Assembly: GCA_039801905.1 (NCBI GenBank)
Contig: JBDRVQ010000018.1
Location: 1-38,103, forward strand
Reading direction: 5' to 3'
Length of the DNA stretch: 38,103 nt
DNA from: a candidate division WOR-3 bacterium
Lineage (GTDB): Bacteria; Hydrothermota; Tepidihabitantia; Tepidihabitantales; JBDRVQ01
Shown here: in pieces, positions 563 to 15,605 of the stretch
Numbering within the stretch: the first letter of the stretch is position 1
How the letters are laid out: each line of letters starts with the position of its first letter
Notes under the pieces: model-generated
Seen by the model: only the letters and a program-made list of their open reading frames with translations
What the model was told of the DNA's origin: nothing
Database searches by the model: none
Translations under genes and position numbers: made by a program

Positions 563-605
563 CCTTTTTCTTATAAGTCCTTGATTTATAATAACTTATT
601 TGATT
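563..605 (-). repeat. Dispersed AT-rich repeat, copy 1 (inverted relative to copy 2)
   Basis: The reverse complement of this stretch contains AATAAGTTATTATAAATCAA followed by a near match to GGCTTATAA and AAAAGG. The same sequence occurs in the opposite orientation at 14684-14725: 20 identical core bases and about 40 alignable bases. Both copies are in intergenic DNA upstream of a 12-bp periodic array. It may be part of the same repeat family; its function is unknown. Confidence 0.6.
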
Positions 606-2437: not shown

Positions 2438-3904
2438 TTATGACCAATCTGGTGGTTCGTAGTTTGGTGCTTCTTTGGTGATGATGATGTCGTGGGGATG
2501 ACTCTCCTTTAACCCCTCACTCGTAATTTTAACAAAGCGTGCCTTTCGGCGTAATTCCTTTATATCCTTTGCCCCGCAATAACCAAAACCGGCTTTTATC
2601 CCACCAACTAATTGGTAAATCACTTCTGATGCCTTTCCCCGGTAAGGAACCCGGCCTTCAATCCCTTCGGGAACGAATTTCTTTGCCTCCTCCTGAAAAT
2701 ATCTATCTTTGGAACCCCGCTTCATCGCATCAATTGAACCCATCGCTCGGTAAATCTTATATCTCCTCCCTTCAAATAGGACCTCTTCTCCTGGACTCTC
2801 GTCAGTTCCGGCGAAGAGATTGCCAATCATTACGGTATCCGCTCCGAAGGCTAATGCCTTTACAATATCCCCGGAATATCTTATCCCGCCATCAGCACAT
2901 AAAGGAATCTTCTCTCTTTTAAGAACCGAATAGGCGTCCATTATCGCGGTAATCTGGGGAACGCCAACACCGGCAATCACCCGGGTGGTGCAGATAGAAC
3001 CCGGACCAATTCCCACCTTAACCCCATCAATATCAAGTTTCAATAGTTCCAAACAGGCTTCCTTTGTTGCCACATTGCCGACAACGATATCAATATCTTT
3101 ATATCTCTTTCTTAAAATCTTTGCCTTCTTAATTACCATCTCGGAATGGGCATGGGCGGTATCAATCACTAAGGCATCAACCCCCGCGGAAACCAAGGCT
3201 TCAGCCCGGGCTTCGCAATCCTTACCAACACCAACCGCCCCTGCCACCCTTAATCTCCCTAAGGAGTCAACAGTGGCGTAAGGGTTTTCCAATTTTTTGA
3301 TAATATCCTTGGCGGTGATTAAGCCTTTTAAGTAGCCCTTACTATCAATAATGGGCAATTTTTCAATCTTCTTCTCTTTGAGAATCCTTTTCGCCTCCTC
3401 TAAGGTTATCCCTTCCAAAGCGGTAATCAAACCTTCCCTTTTGGTCATCACCAGTTTCAGTTTCTTATTACCATCGGCTTCAAAGAGTAAATCCCTTTTG
3501 GTGACAATTCCTAAAAGTTTACCCTCTTCATCCACAATCGGCACTCCAGAAATTCCGTACTTTTCCATCAAATCCCGACAGTCCCTTATCGTATCGTTTG
3601 GTTTCAGGGTGAAAGGGGAAAGTATCATTCCACTCTCTGCCCTTTTTACCTTTATCACCTCTTCTGCCTGTTCGGCAAGAGAAAGGTTTTTATGAATTAC
3701 CCCAATCCCCCCGGAGGTGGCTAAGGTGATTGCCATCCGCGCCTCGGTCACGGTATCCATCGCGGCACTGACCAGGGGGATATGTAAAGGGATGGAACGG
3801 GAGAAGCGGGTTTTAAGGGAGACATCCTTCGGTAGAACCTTGGAGCGATTGGGCACTAATAATATATCGTTGAAGGTTAAGGCTTCCCGGATCTTCCCTC
3901 TCAC
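2438..3904 (-). CDS. guaB: Inosine-5'-monophosphate dehydrogenase
   Basis: Full-length 488-residue IMPDH, which oxidises IMP to XMP with NAD+ in the first committed step of GMP synthesis. The N-terminus ([20 protein letters not shown]) is typical. Two CBS domains occupy about residues 95-210 ([23 protein letters not shown] and a second copy ending [13 protein letters not shown]). The catalytic loop [15 protein letters not shown], containing the active-site Cys, is at about residues 299-313. The flap region [17 protein letters not shown] and EGRVPYRGK follow, and the protein ends with a standard [15 protein letters not shown] tail. It is the last gene of a minus-strand cluster; its ATG lies 2 nt after the tlpA-like stop codon, so it is probably cotranscribed with, and translationally coupled to, the thioredoxin genes. 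Confidence 0.97.
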
Positions 3905-9121: not shown

Positions 9122-11664
9122 AATCCTTAATTTATCTTTTAGCAATCTCTTTCCTCTTTGCTGACCACCCTGTCTTCCGCAAGGAAAGATACGAGAAGAT
9201 CTTAAAGGAAAAACCGGATAATCCAGAAGTTCTTAGGCAATTGGGAATGACCTATTTTAAGTTGAGGGATTTTGATAAAGCAGAAGAATATCTTAAAAAA
9301 TCTTTAAGCCTCTCCCCTACTTTTGAGATGAAAGTCTGGTATTATAAAGCGAAGGCGAAGTTAGCAGAAGGAAAAGAAAGAGAAGTGAAGAGGTTAAAAG
9401 AAGAGATAAAGAATTTAATAAAAGAGAAGAGTGAAGAGAATTTAACGATTGCCTATGAGGTCTTCTCAATAATTGATACCAATCAGGCAAAAATCCTCAG
9501 TGAAGAGATTGTTAAAAAATTTCCCGAATCAAAAACCGGTTATCTCATCCTCGTCCACAACCTCTTCTATGACAGCCTCTATCCCATCTGGAATAACGAT
9601 ACCTTAAAAATCCAGTATCTGAACCGCTTCTTAGAGAGGTATCCCAAGACCGAGTGGCGCTTTACTGCTTACCAGTATCTTTTAACTTCTCTATTCTATT
9701 TAAAAGATTATCCTTCTTTAATTACCAATATGGAAAGGATGTTAAAAGAGGATTCCCTAAATCCCCTCGCCTATAACTTTGCCGCCAATCTTCTTCTGAG
9801 AGCGGAGACTTTAACGATGAGGGCAAAAGAATACGCAAGGAAGGCAAGAGAATTGGCACCGGGATTTAAGAAGTTTCCTAATCTCCCCGAGGAGCAGTGG
9901 CAACTGCAAAAACCCCGTCTCTTACCGGATGCCAATTTCAATTACGCCCGGGCATACTTCCGCTTGGGAGATTTGGACTCCGCTGAGATTTATGCGACAA
10001 AAGCGATTGAAGGGAGTAATTTTGATTTAGATAACGATGCCACCAGTTCTCCCTATTATTACCTCTTGGGGCAAATTAAAGAGAAGAAAGGAGATCTTGG
10101 AGAGGCAATTAAAAATTATTGCCAATCCCTGATTGAAGGTGATGTGAATAATTTCTGGTCAAAAAAATCGGACTCCGCCCTCAAGAGGATCTTTAAGGAT
10201 ACGACAGAGATTCTTCCTACTGCCCGGAAAATTTTCCGTTACCGTGGACCAACATTTCTTGACATCACCGAGCAGGTTGGTCTTAAAGAGCGAAGAGAGA
10301 CAAGGGTTGCCTTCGGCGATTACGATAACGATGGTTATGAAGATTTACTTCTCAATGGCTGTAAGTTATTTAAGAATATTAAAGGAAAGGAATTTCAGGA
10401 AGTGAGTGCCGGCGCGGGACTGGGCAATTTTTCTTCCGGTGGTGGTCTCTTTGCCGATTTTGATAATGATGGCTTCTTAGATATCATCGCTTGTGGCGGC
10501 GGGGAAAAAGGGGACAGAATCTTCAAGAATAATGGCGATGGCACTTTTACCGAGATGACCGAAATCGCCAATGTTAGTGATTCTTATCCCACCGAAGGCT
10601 TGGGAGTTGGGGATTATAATAATGATGGCTTCTTAGATATCTATTTTGCCAACTACGAAGACTGGGCAACTCACAAGTATTTCCCAGATTTTCTTTATAG
10701 GAATAACGGTAATTTCCAATTCACCAATGTGACGGAATCGGCTGGCATTATTCCCCCGTTTAAGGAAGACCGGGCTGGTCGGGGTGTTAACTGGTGCGAT
10801 TATAACGAAGATGGTCTAATTGACATCTATGTCTCAAACTACCGTTTGCAAGAGAATTTCCTCTGGCACAATCTGGGAGATGGTAAATTTATTAACCTTG
10901 CCCCCAAATTAGGTATCGCGGGGGATGAGACCCTTGACTATTATGGCCATACGATTGGCTCGGAGTGGACGGATTATGATAACGATGGCGACTTTGATTT
11001 AATCACTTGTAATTTAGCCCACCCCCGTTATATTGAATTTTCTAACCGGACAAGACTTTACCAGAACCAAGGAGCGCCCGATTATCAATTTATTGATAAG
11101 AGAAAGGAAGCCGGGATAAAATATGAGGAGACCCATTCCGAACCCTGCTTCGGTGATCTTGATAACGACGGTGACTTAGATTTATACCTCACCTCGGTCT
11201 ATGAGAATAGAAGGAGTTTCTTATACGAAAATGATGGAAAAGGTAAATTTTTTGACATTACCTATTTGAGTGGTACTCGGGTCTTCAACGGCTGGGGCGC
11301 TGCCTTTTGTGATTTTGACAATGACGGCGACTTAGATTTAATTGTTGGTTCTGGTTCCGGATTAAAATTCTTTGCGAATCAAACCAAAAATAAGGGCAAT
11401 TACTTAAAGATAAAACTGGTTGGTCAGAAATCAAATAGAGATTGTATTGGGGCAAAAATTACTGCCTATTACCAAGATAAGATAATGGCCAGGCAGGTGG
11501 AAGGAGGAAAGGGAACAACCAACCAGAACTCTTTAATTATCCATTTCGGCTTCGGGAAGTATAAAGGACCGGTTAAATTGGAGATAAAATTCCCCTCGGG
11601 AAAGAGAAAGGTCTTAGAAAATATAAAGTTGAACCAACTCTTAGTTGTTTCCGAAGAATCGTAA
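9118..11664 (+). CDS. Secreted TPR / FG-GAP (VCBS) / ASPIC-UnbV protein
   Basis: 848 residues starting at a TTG that overlaps the upstream stop (TTGA). This start gives a good signal peptide (KSLIYLLAISFLFA), whereas a longer in-frame version would read through acyl-CoA dehydrogenase in a shadow frame. After the signal comes a TPR region (about 20-370; RQLGMTYFKLRDFDKAEEYL is a clear unit). It is followed by a beta-propeller with at least seven Ca-binding D-x-D/N-x-D-G-x-x-D loops: DYDNDGYED, DFDNDGFLD, DYNNDGFLD, DYNEDGLID, DYDNDGDFD, DLDNDGDLD, DFDNDGDLD. The C-terminus (about 745-848; NYLKIKLVGQKSNRDCIGAKI) is an ASPIC/UnbV domain. Such proteins are extracellular and probably bind carbohydrate or protein partners; the role is unknown. 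It is the last gene of the purD cluster. Confidence 0.88.
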   Translation: MKSLIYLLAISFLFADHPVFRKERYEKILKEKPDNPEVLRQLGMTYFKLRDFDKAEEYLKKSLSLSPTFEMKVWYYKAKAKLAEGKEREVKRLKEEIKNLIKEKSEENLTIAYEVFSIIDTNQAKILSEEIVKKFPESKTGYLILVHNLFYDSLYPIWNNDTLKIQYLNRFLERYPKTEWRFTAYQYLLTSLFYLKDYPSLITNMERMLKEDSLNPLAYNFAANLLLRAETLTMRAKEYARKARELAPGFKKFPNLPEEQWQLQKPRLLPDANFNYARAYFRLGDLDSAEIYATKAIEGSNFDLDNDATSSPYYYLLGQIKEKKGDLGEAIKNYCQSLIEGDVNNFWSKKSDSALKRIFKDTTEILPTARKIFRYRGPTFLDITEQVGLKERRETRVAFGDYDNDGYEDLLLNGCKLFKNIKGKEFQEVSAGAGLGNFSSGGGLFADFDNDGFLDIIACGGGEKGDRIFKNNGDGTFTEMTEIANVSDSYPTEGLGVGDYNNDGFLDIYFANYEDWATHKYFPDFLYRNNGNFQFTNVTESAGIIPPFKEDRAGRGVNWCDYNEDGLIDIYVSNYRLQENFLWHNLGDGKFINLAPKLGIAGDETLDYYGHTIGSEWTDYDNDGDFDLITCNLAHPRYIEFSNRTRLYQNQGAPDYQFIDKRKEAGIKYEETHSEPCFGDLDNDGDLDLYLTSVYENRRSFLYENDGKGKFFDITYLSGTRVFNGWGAAFCDFDNDGDLDLIVGSGSGLKFFANQTKNKGNYLKIKLVGQKSNRDCIGAKITAYYQDKIMARQVEGGKGTTNQNSLIIHFGFGKYKGPVKLEIKFPSGKRKVLENIKLNQLLVVSEES

Positions 11665-14683: not shown

Positions 14684-14725
14684 ATCAAAAATAAGTTATT
14701 ATAAATCAAAGGCTTATAAAAAAGG
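14684..14725 (+). repeat. Dispersed AT-rich repeat, copy 2
   Basis: Contains AATAAGTTATTATAAATCAA, identical over 20 bases to the reverse complement of 563-605. The flanks also match: ATCAAA on one side, CTTATAA and AAAGG on the other. It sits about 290 bp before the head of array 2. Confidence 0.6.
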
Positions 14726-14779
14726 AGAAAATTTAGTGTCAGAAAATGGGGGGTATTTCCGTATTTATTATAGAGGGCT

Positions 14780-14941
14780 ATGGAGAAGTTAAAAGAAATT
14801 ATTAAAGATTTTCCCCTTTTGGAATTAAGTCGCTCGCCTTTGGCGAAGTCTCGCTCGCCGAAGGCAAAGTCTCGCCTCAAAGAGGCGGATAAGACTTTTA
14901 TAATTATCAGAAGGAGGTGCTATCGGGTAAGTAGCAGTTAA
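14780..14941 (+). CDS. Small ORF carrying hairpin repeats in frame (doubtful)
   Basis: A 53-codon open frame. It starts MEKLKEIIKDFPLLEL, then three repeat-encoded segments SRSPLAKSRSPKAKSRLKEA, then DKTFIIIRRRCYRVSSS. The non-repeat ends read like a protein N-terminus interrupted by an in-frame insertion of palindromic DNA, after which homology is lost. No product can be named, and no clear Shine-Dalgarno is present. It is probably the stub of a decayed gene; it may not be expressed. Confidence 0.25.
   Translation: MEKLKEIIKDFPLLELSRSPLAKSRSPKAKSRLKEADKTFIIIRRRCYRVSSS
14827..14888 (+). repeat. Three tandem hairpin units
   Basis: Three consecutive units each begin AAGTC and carry a small inverted repeat: CGCC-TTT-GGCG (14827-14845), GCC-GAA-GGC (14846-14866), GCCTC-AAA-GAGGC (14867-14888). 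They share TCTCGC cores with each other and with the palindrome in the cas6 3' end (935-948). Confidence 0.6.
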
Positions 14942-15018
14942 ATAAAAATATGGCGTTAAATTGCAAAAACTTTATCAAACAGGAGGGGTTTATCTTTATA
15001 AAAAGGGGTGTAGCATAC

Positions 15019-15034
15019 AGGGGATGGTATCGGG
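15019..15034 (+). repeat. Conserved head of 12-bp array 2
   Basis: AGGGGATGGTATCGG, identical to the head of array 1 (631), and again exactly 16 bp before the first unit. Confidence 0.75.
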
Positions 15035-15262
15035 GATTTAATGGAAGGCATAATCTAAGGTCTAAGAAAAGGCATAATTTTAGGCTTAATCGGAGTTTTA
15101 ATAGAGGGTTTAATTGAGGATTTAATAAATAGTCTAAGAAAGGTTATAACCGGGGGTATAATTAGAAACCTAATTCAGAGTTTAATAGAAGGGATAATAA
15201 AGAGTTTAATCCTATGTCTAACTATGGGTTTAATCCGAAGGGAAAATGGAAGCCTAATTGAG
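15035..15262 (+). repeat. Degenerate 12-bp periodic array 2 (19 units)
   Basis: Nineteen 12-bp units without any phase slip, 228 bp, exactly the length of array 1. TAA is at unit positions 5-7 in 18 of 19 (the exception is the unit at 15239); position 8 is T in 14 of those 18; positions 9-12 vary. Example units are GGTTTAATTGAG, AGTCTAAGAAAG, AGTTTAATAGAA. One plus frame gives a G/S-L-I-x tetrapeptide series with a stop in unit 2 and no good start codon. Although head, length and spacing match array 1, individual units are not the same in the two arrays, so this is not a recent copy. Confidence 0.88.
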
Positions 15263-15605
15263 AATGATTAGTGGAGAAGAATAATCTTCTCTTTTGAATA
15301 GAGCCCTCGCTTTCCATCCGCTTCCAATAAATGGGTAAAACTTTTCCCAGATGCGCATCGTATTTGCCGGATGAGTGTTGATGTAATCGGTCCAGCCGGA
15401 ATAGGTGATGAGAAATTGATTACCTATCCCGTGTGCCAATGAAGGCGAAATCTGATTTCCTTGCCGGTGGGAAGAGAAGTCGTTTAGATTGACGACACAT
15501 CACCGGACAAATCCGCGGGTGTGAATCGCCTCAGATATCTTTATCGGTTGAGCCGGATTGGAGACATTGATGACATATATCCCACAACCAGAACCCAAAA
15601 ATGCT
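15254..15605 (-). pseudogene. Remnant of a secreted LVIVD-type repeat protein
   Basis: The minus strand reads GSGCGIYVINVSNPAQPIK then ISEAIHTRGFVR, one clear LVIVD-type repeat. A TGA stop follows, then the same frame continues with DFSSHRQGNQISPSLAHG and NQFLITYSGWTDYINTHPAN-TMRIWEKFYPFIG. The start of the gene, most repeats and the C-terminus are missing, so it is a decayed fragment of an extracytoplasmic protein. The frame runs into the last unit of array 2, but real similarity probably ends near 15290. The 61-codon frame at 15254-15439 is therefore unlikely to be an intact gene. Confidence 0.6.
15274..15295 (+). terminator. Hairpin plus TTTT just after array 2
   Basis: GAGAAGA-ATAA-TCTTCTC is a perfect 7-bp stem with a 4-nt loop, followed by TTTT on the + strand, starting 12 bp after the last array unit. 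It looks like a short intrinsic terminator for a plus-strand array transcript; it could also act for the minus strand. Confidence 0.45.

Follow-up and report, generated by a model that had tools for sequence, protein, structure and literature searches.

Twelve-base-pair-phased DNA arrays in a bacterial order as putative binding sites for proteins related to Adnaviria capsid proteins

The window, the whole 38,103-nucleotide stretch analysed here, is contig 18 of the 58 contigs of a 1.70-Mb genome and carries two arrays of 12-bp units on its forward strand. Array 2 (15035–15262) consists of 19 units with the consensus RGTYTAATNRRR; TAA is present in 18 of the 19, the exception being the unit at 15239, AGGGAAAATGGA. 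Array 1 (647–874) also has 19 units of 12 bp and the same consensus. A 15-bp head, AGGGGATGGTATCGG, is identical at positions 631 and 15019 and begins 16 bp ahead of unit 1 in both cases. Taken up to unit 1, which it abuts, the head spans 15019–15034 at array 2 (AGGGGATGGTATCGGG) and 631–646 at array 1, and it is near-invariant across most genomic copies. Our recount bore out everything that the initial annotation had reported of array 2, namely its 19 units, TAA in 18 of them, the head shared with array 1 and the 16-bp offset. Its 7-bp hairpin with TTTT was likewise present as described: on the forward strand at 15274–15295, GAGAAGA-ATAA-TCTTCTC and then TTTT begin 12 bp past the last unit. 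This hairpin is found in only a few related copies and is not constant.

Upstream of array 2, and on the same strand, lie four further parts. The leader AGGAGGGGTTTATCTTTATAAAAAGGGGTGTAGCATAC (14981–15018) is common to most copies. What is left of a gene termed B, the last codons at its 3' end (14911–14934), was recognised by by-eye alignment with locus L091 and other copies and reads KEVLSGK-stop, versus EIKEALSEK-stop in intact copies of the gene. The H block, TTTAGTGTCAGAAAATGGGGGGTATTTCCG... (14732–14777), is conserved and precedes a gene termed A or its remnant, and the T block, AAGTTATTATAAATCAAAGGCTTATAAAA (14693–14721), is the furthest-upstream conserved block. The remaining parts of genes A and B are absent here. 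Inside the gene remnant, at 14830–14934, are palindrome-like dispersed repeats, TCGCTCGCC...GGCGAAGTC and CGCCTCAAAGAGGCGGATAAGACT. At array 1, a T block sits inverted (569–597, reverse strand) directly 5' of the head, as it does at loci L088 and L111.

Array and head recur in the genome far above chance. With up to three mismatches the head pattern gave 34 genome matches versus none for a reversed control (57 with a looser pattern), and eight successive TAA-N9 units gave 335 overlapping matches versus 10 for the control. In total the genome holds about 60–70 dispersed array copies. A profile scan over the window and 60 further loci gave 65 scoring array segments; those that are arrays of at least 12 units number 58. 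These 58 contain 12–19 units, most commonly 17 (20 arrays) or 18 (18 arrays), so 19 is the upper end of a range and the proposal of a number always fixed at 19 was rejected. The expectation that a terminator-like hairpin regularly ends the array fared no better: one was found within 70 nt in 7 of the 58 arrays, where 3 are expected, and a conserved terminator was discarded. In 60 related genomes the head returned just single matches at chance level. A match on a Chloroflexi contig resembled, on inspection, ordinary coding sequence and had no array. Matches to the TAA pattern also occur in genomes G006 and G128, that in G128 being a perfect short repeat.

The order of parts upstream of most arrays is conserved: blocks T and H, then gene remnants, then the near-invariant leader and head. 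In a few copies, two small genes, A (~122 amino acids) and B (~111 amino acids), occupy the place where others have remnants. Behind four of the five intact A genes in the genome come B, which is broken in one case, and an array, in the same order and on the same strand; the fifth, on contig 4, lacks both B and array. This fifth gene is the one at 9458–9904 of L267 (G000:C4), which like the others resembles genes for major capsid proteins (MCPs; see below); its neighbours are Peptidase_M15_3, helix-turn-helix and sigma-factor-like genes. Compared with the fuller copies, array 2 is a deleted copy, in which T (from 14693), H (from 14732) and the last codons of B are followed by head and array. 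It is the 3' end of a larger element that carries capsid-protein-like genes where it is more complete. Most dispersed copies are such internally deleted A-B-array elements, retaining the array and flanking blocks.

The initial annotation had also suggested a mobile or satellite-like element. The dispersal and the internal deletion of most copies agree with that suggestion; terminal inverted repeats or target duplications were not demonstrated. The T block is a candidate 5' end of the element and is sometimes inverted, and no matching 3' end was seen. A repeated gene starting MSIFLKISKKSRVK, which by eye resembles IS256/mutator-type transposase genes, lies on the reverse strand of L164 (2411–2864) and downstream of the arrays L069, L071, L077, L082 and L089. 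This gene and a repeated GAGATATATTCAAATTATGTGG block directly follow several arrays.

If the arrays were no more than decaying tandem repeats, all of their positions should drift alike. Across about 1000 units the TAA positions are conserved at 95, 97 and 99%. Between close copies, compared as 21 independent pairs with 330 aligned units, these positions differ by 2–3% and the other nine by 12–20%; this uneven decay, about 2% for TAA versus 12–20% elsewhere, led us to reject ordinary decaying tandem repeats. We also considered a repeated tetrapeptide, given that one frame of the array (GLIE...) is often open. In this frame, A is the third base of the Leu/Ile/Val codon in 97% of cases, whereas the first base of that codon varies freely. 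Units with C at the key position have a purine deficit equal to that of units with T. Most copies have an in-frame TAG ahead of the head. Substitution rates within the arrays lack codon periodicity, and positions outside TAA change at equal rates. Taken together, these patterns indicate that the array is not coding and that triplet and spacing are what is kept, and the tetrapeptide reading was dismissed. Purifying selection acting on DNA geometry and TAA, and not on codons, is therefore strongly supported.

The same constraint bears on the idea of a MITE-like selfish repeat, dispersed by some transposase, in which period 12 and TAA would mirror the source copy and nothing else. The 60–70 copies with conserved outer blocks T and H and with internal deletions would suit such a repeat, as would the IS-like sequence adjoining several arrays. 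However, the constraint on TAA persists between diverging copies, arrays of equal period and unrelated cores stand beside homologous genes in other genomes (described below), and the termini and duplications of a transposon were not shown. We consider this explanation very improbable.

Further insight came from proteins A and B, which belong to one family and occur in tandem; tandem pairs are also found in genomes G003, G006 and G009. Searched singly, their sequences gave weak leads only. A family profile built from 71 relatives matched adnaviral coat proteins in the PDB: SSRV1 (6wq0, 1.5e-10), SIRV2 (3j9x, 2.2e-9), AFV1 ORF140 (5w7g, 1e-6) and ORF132 (5.5e-5), and SFV1 (6d5f, 1.1e-4), the other top matches being likewise adnaviral. 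The Pfam family Sulf_coat_C was matched by 34 of the 71 members (best 4.4e-16). The AlphaFold2 model of A (pLDDT 93.8) matched 3j9x in Foldseek with probability 1.00, TM 0.70 and E 4.9e-3, and that of B (pLDDT 84.0) matched 3fbl and 3f2e with probability 1.00 and weak E-values. Overall, the two models match the coat proteins of SIRV2, SSRV1 and AFV1 at probability 1.00 with modest E-values. Sequence profile and predicted helical fold thus identify A and B as homologues of the MCPs of Adnaviria. No bacterial relative of these MCPs was reported in the literature that we searched, mostly open-access journal papers. According to one published description, no virus of bacteria or eukaryotes is connected to the adnavirians (PMC10848233).

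The host is a bacterium. The window contig encodes bacterial rpoB, rpoC, nusG and rplA, and the small-subunit rRNA model RF00177 scores 1513 bits, a model that also matches archaeal controls. The MCP-like family is present in all 28 genomes examined from the host's order, including a single-contig genome, with 3 to at least 30 copies each. Outside the order, it was found in one further genome (with 7% contamination) among the 147 genomes examined from the phylum. In the neighbourhoods examined, MCP-like genes adjoin housekeeping genes (clpX, flavin reductase, aldehyde dehydrogenase, cstA, riboflavin genes and ndk) and have no recognisable viral neighbours. Synteny is partly kept between genomes, as with clpX-MCP in G005 and G002. 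At L237 (G023:C15), three consecutive MCP-like genes (1269–1673, 2032–2436 and 3241–3609) lie behind one array of about 22 units (882–1145), which has alternating 24-bp units and is followed by a G-rich hairpin.

These neighbourhoods weigh on a viral explanation, according to which A and B would have been left behind by Adnaviria-like viruses of bacteria after integration, the arrays would be packaging or nucleation signals and the dispersed copies viral satellites. MCP homology itself speaks for it, together with the multiplied, internally deleted copies and the contig 4 copy of A beside Peptidase_M15_3 and helix-turn-helix genes. It is opposed by genes that stand alone among housekeeping genes in kept synteny (clpX-MCP, riboflavin genes, CstA, NDK) and by a family distribution that takes in every one of the 28 genomes from the order and a single further one among 147. 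Patterns derived from A and B found no viral relative in IMG/VR, a search of limited sensitivity that distant relatives would escape, and no MCP relative was found in phage records. With housekeeping neighbours in place of viral ones and a host that is not archaeal, we did not assign the genes to an adnavirus or provirus, and we judge the viral explanation unlikely.

Each capsid-protein dimer of AFV1, SFV1 and PFV2 grips exactly 12 bp of A-form DNA (PMC5517147, PMC6105669, PMC7189273), and the AFV1 study found that 12 bp per dimer fitted SIRV also (PMC5517147). This published figure, with which the period of our arrays agrees as expected for the predicted binding, prompted us to look for the same period next to homologues of these genes in other genomes. 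Autocorrelation in the regions upstream of 70 such genes was elevated at lags 12 (mean z 2.30) and 24 (2.05), versus −0.13 to 0.17 at lags 10, 11, 13 and 14. We then scanned periods 7 to 20 for phased triplets. With a triplet required in at least 6 of 10 units, 11 of 71 upstream regions had an array at period 12 and the 13 other periods together yielded 3. In 62 held-out regions fetched after the first test, the same threshold gave 24 at period 12 versus 20 at all others, and at least 7 of 10 gave 17 versus 1. For both sets combined, the stricter threshold gave 26 arrays at period 12 versus 2 at the 13 other periods together. Within 20 loci of up to 20 kb (~390 kb), chosen around MCP-like genes, the period-12 arrays number five, every one of them next to such genes, and each of nine control periods returned 0 or 1 array. 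Period 12 is thus near-exclusive among strongly phased arrays beside these genes, about two thirds of which have no strong array. Strong 7-bp tandem repeats occur near MCP-like genes at L190 (~1969, G024) and L191 (~3173, G027), with lag-7 identities of 0.71 and 0.83, and the set of downstream regions also shows period 7. Loci L328 and L318 resemble simple 6- and 24-bp repeats and are possibly not true arrays.

The core within the 12-bp unit differs among genomes: TAA here, and ATAAG, TGA, TCA (as in the array of the single-gene homologue L252/L309), GTC, GAC, ACC, GGC, TGG or CTG elsewhere. Core triplets vary with MCP subfamily while the period stays constant, and loci with more similar proteins have more similar unit motifs (Mantel r 0.51, 0 of 2000 permutations). 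Joint descent of gene and array, instead of recognition, could give this overall correlation. Two pairs of loci have similar proteins and similar units, yet array DNA that can no longer be aligned: L255 and L312 (proteins 93% identical, motif similarity 0.81, array DNA 48%) and L320 and L321 (identical proteins, motif 0.75, array DNA 57%). Selection for geometry such as the spacing of bound proteins, which the initial annotation had put forward, is strongly supported by the constrained TAA and by neighbours homologous to proteins that hold 12 bp per dimer. The persistence of period 12 beside homologous genes in other genomes, with changing core triplets, adds to this.

Alternatively, the arrays could be transcribed and act as a noncoding RNA in which UAA recurs every 12 nt, either as a binding target of A/B-like or other proteins or as a sponge. 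Complete copies carry the array at the 3' end of the A-B transcription unit. A TTGACA-N16/17-TATAAT promoter precedes 11 of the 58 arrays, at −122 to −135 from unit 1, and has no mismatch in ten of these cases; the eleven arrays (L066, L076, L082, L092, L096, L100, L104, L109, L112, L113 and L119) all lack A/B remnants. Such near-perfect sigma-70 promoters at a fixed distance speak for an RNA role. Nevertheless, no terminator is constant, folding is weak when set against column-shuffled controls (mean z −0.8 for the sense and −1.0 for the antisense strand) and there was no Rfam match, with only tRNAs in the window, L162 and L237. A structured RNA or Rfam family was rejected on these last two grounds, and the RNA of fixed length that had been suggested for the arrays is unsupported, given the variable unit number, the inconstant terminator and the lack of marked structure. 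Transcription geometry also varies. Arrays lie downstream of the genes in the host genome and elsewhere mostly 150–450 bp upstream. Finally, the homologous proteins bind double-stranded DNA. An RNA function is about as unlikely, in our estimation, as a viral one.

We favour, with a probability of roughly three in four, the reading that the arrays are phased binding sites for dimers of the A/B MCP homologues and seed a nucleoprotein filament. One dimer would be seated on each 12-bp unit, reading its short core (TAA here), and adjacent dimers would polymerise cooperatively into a filament starting at the head. DNA within the filament would be A-like in geometry. The filament would presumably serve the cell, through self-regulation or local DNA compaction, and would not make particles. 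The A-B-array unit has multiplied in this genome, with most copies keeping array and flanking blocks only. Several observations count against this reading: strong arrays are missing beside about two thirds of the homologous genes, the position of the array relative to the genes differs between this genome and others, joint descent of array and gene would equally link core and subfamily, and the promoters before 11 arrays speak for RNA. Published filaments have 14.7 (SIRV2), ~15.7 (PFV2), 17.1 (SFV1) and 9.3 (AFV1) dimers per superhelical turn; the arrays of the host genome, mostly of 15–19 units, would thus correspond to about one turn of the SIRV2, PFV2 or SFV1 filament, though not of AFV1, an analogy that is suggestive only.

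A 12-bp repeat beside genes for relatives of the coat proteins of archaeal filamentous viruses, which grip DNA 12 bp at a time, suggests that the bacteria of this order maintain a DNA-wrapping system akin to a virus coat and have dedicated landing strips for it. A wider proposal, to which we give slightly less than even odds, is that this whole bacterial order maintains MCP-like proteins encoded on the chromosome. Each of them would read its own array, phased at 12 bp, by a core triplet that differs from those of the others, and would build on it an A-DNA-like filament seeded by the sequence. Such a cellular DNA-wrapping system would be related, and possibly ancestral, to the Adnaviria coat. 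If this is correct, the adnavirian capsid protein has cellular relatives in bacteria, a point relevant to how a virus realm originated. The arrays would be naturally occurring, sequence-phased substrates for proteins of a family that converts DNA to the A form, and the many paralogues with differing cores would supply a code, already in place, for work on sequence reading by an A-DNA-wrapping protein.

Among known systems, the MCPs of Adnaviria (Tokiviricetes; SIRV2, SSRV1, AFV1, SFV1 and PFV2) are similar in sequence profile, in helical fold and in the DNA held per viral dimer, which equals the 12-bp repeat; the paired MCPs of AFV1 recall the A-B tandem paralogues. In contrast to these viruses, the host here is bacterial, and the genes stand singly or in pairs among housekeeping genes and not in a recognised viral genome. 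To our knowledge, sequence-phased DNA arrays with gene-specific cores have not been described for Adnaviria. MITE- and REP-type intergenic repeats share the numerous internally deleted, non-coding copies between genes, but the present arrays have strict 12-bp geometry and ongoing constraint on one triplet, with no termini or target duplications shown. Double jelly-roll capsid proteins have cellular homologues (PMC8812541). These set a precedent for cellular kin of a viral capsid protein, although their fold and virus realm are unrelated to those of A and B. We know of no phased DNA arrays associated with them. In ParB-parS, ParR-parC, TubR-tubC and Rep iteron systems, arrays are bound by the protein of a neighbouring gene. 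The likeness lies in phased direct repeats beside the gene of a putative binder and in the cooperative assembly that we propose. Unlike those systems, the protein here is an MCP homologue, the listed neighbourhoods yielded no recognisable ParA, TubZ or Rep gene, and a genome can have 30 or more paralogues, with about 60 array copies.
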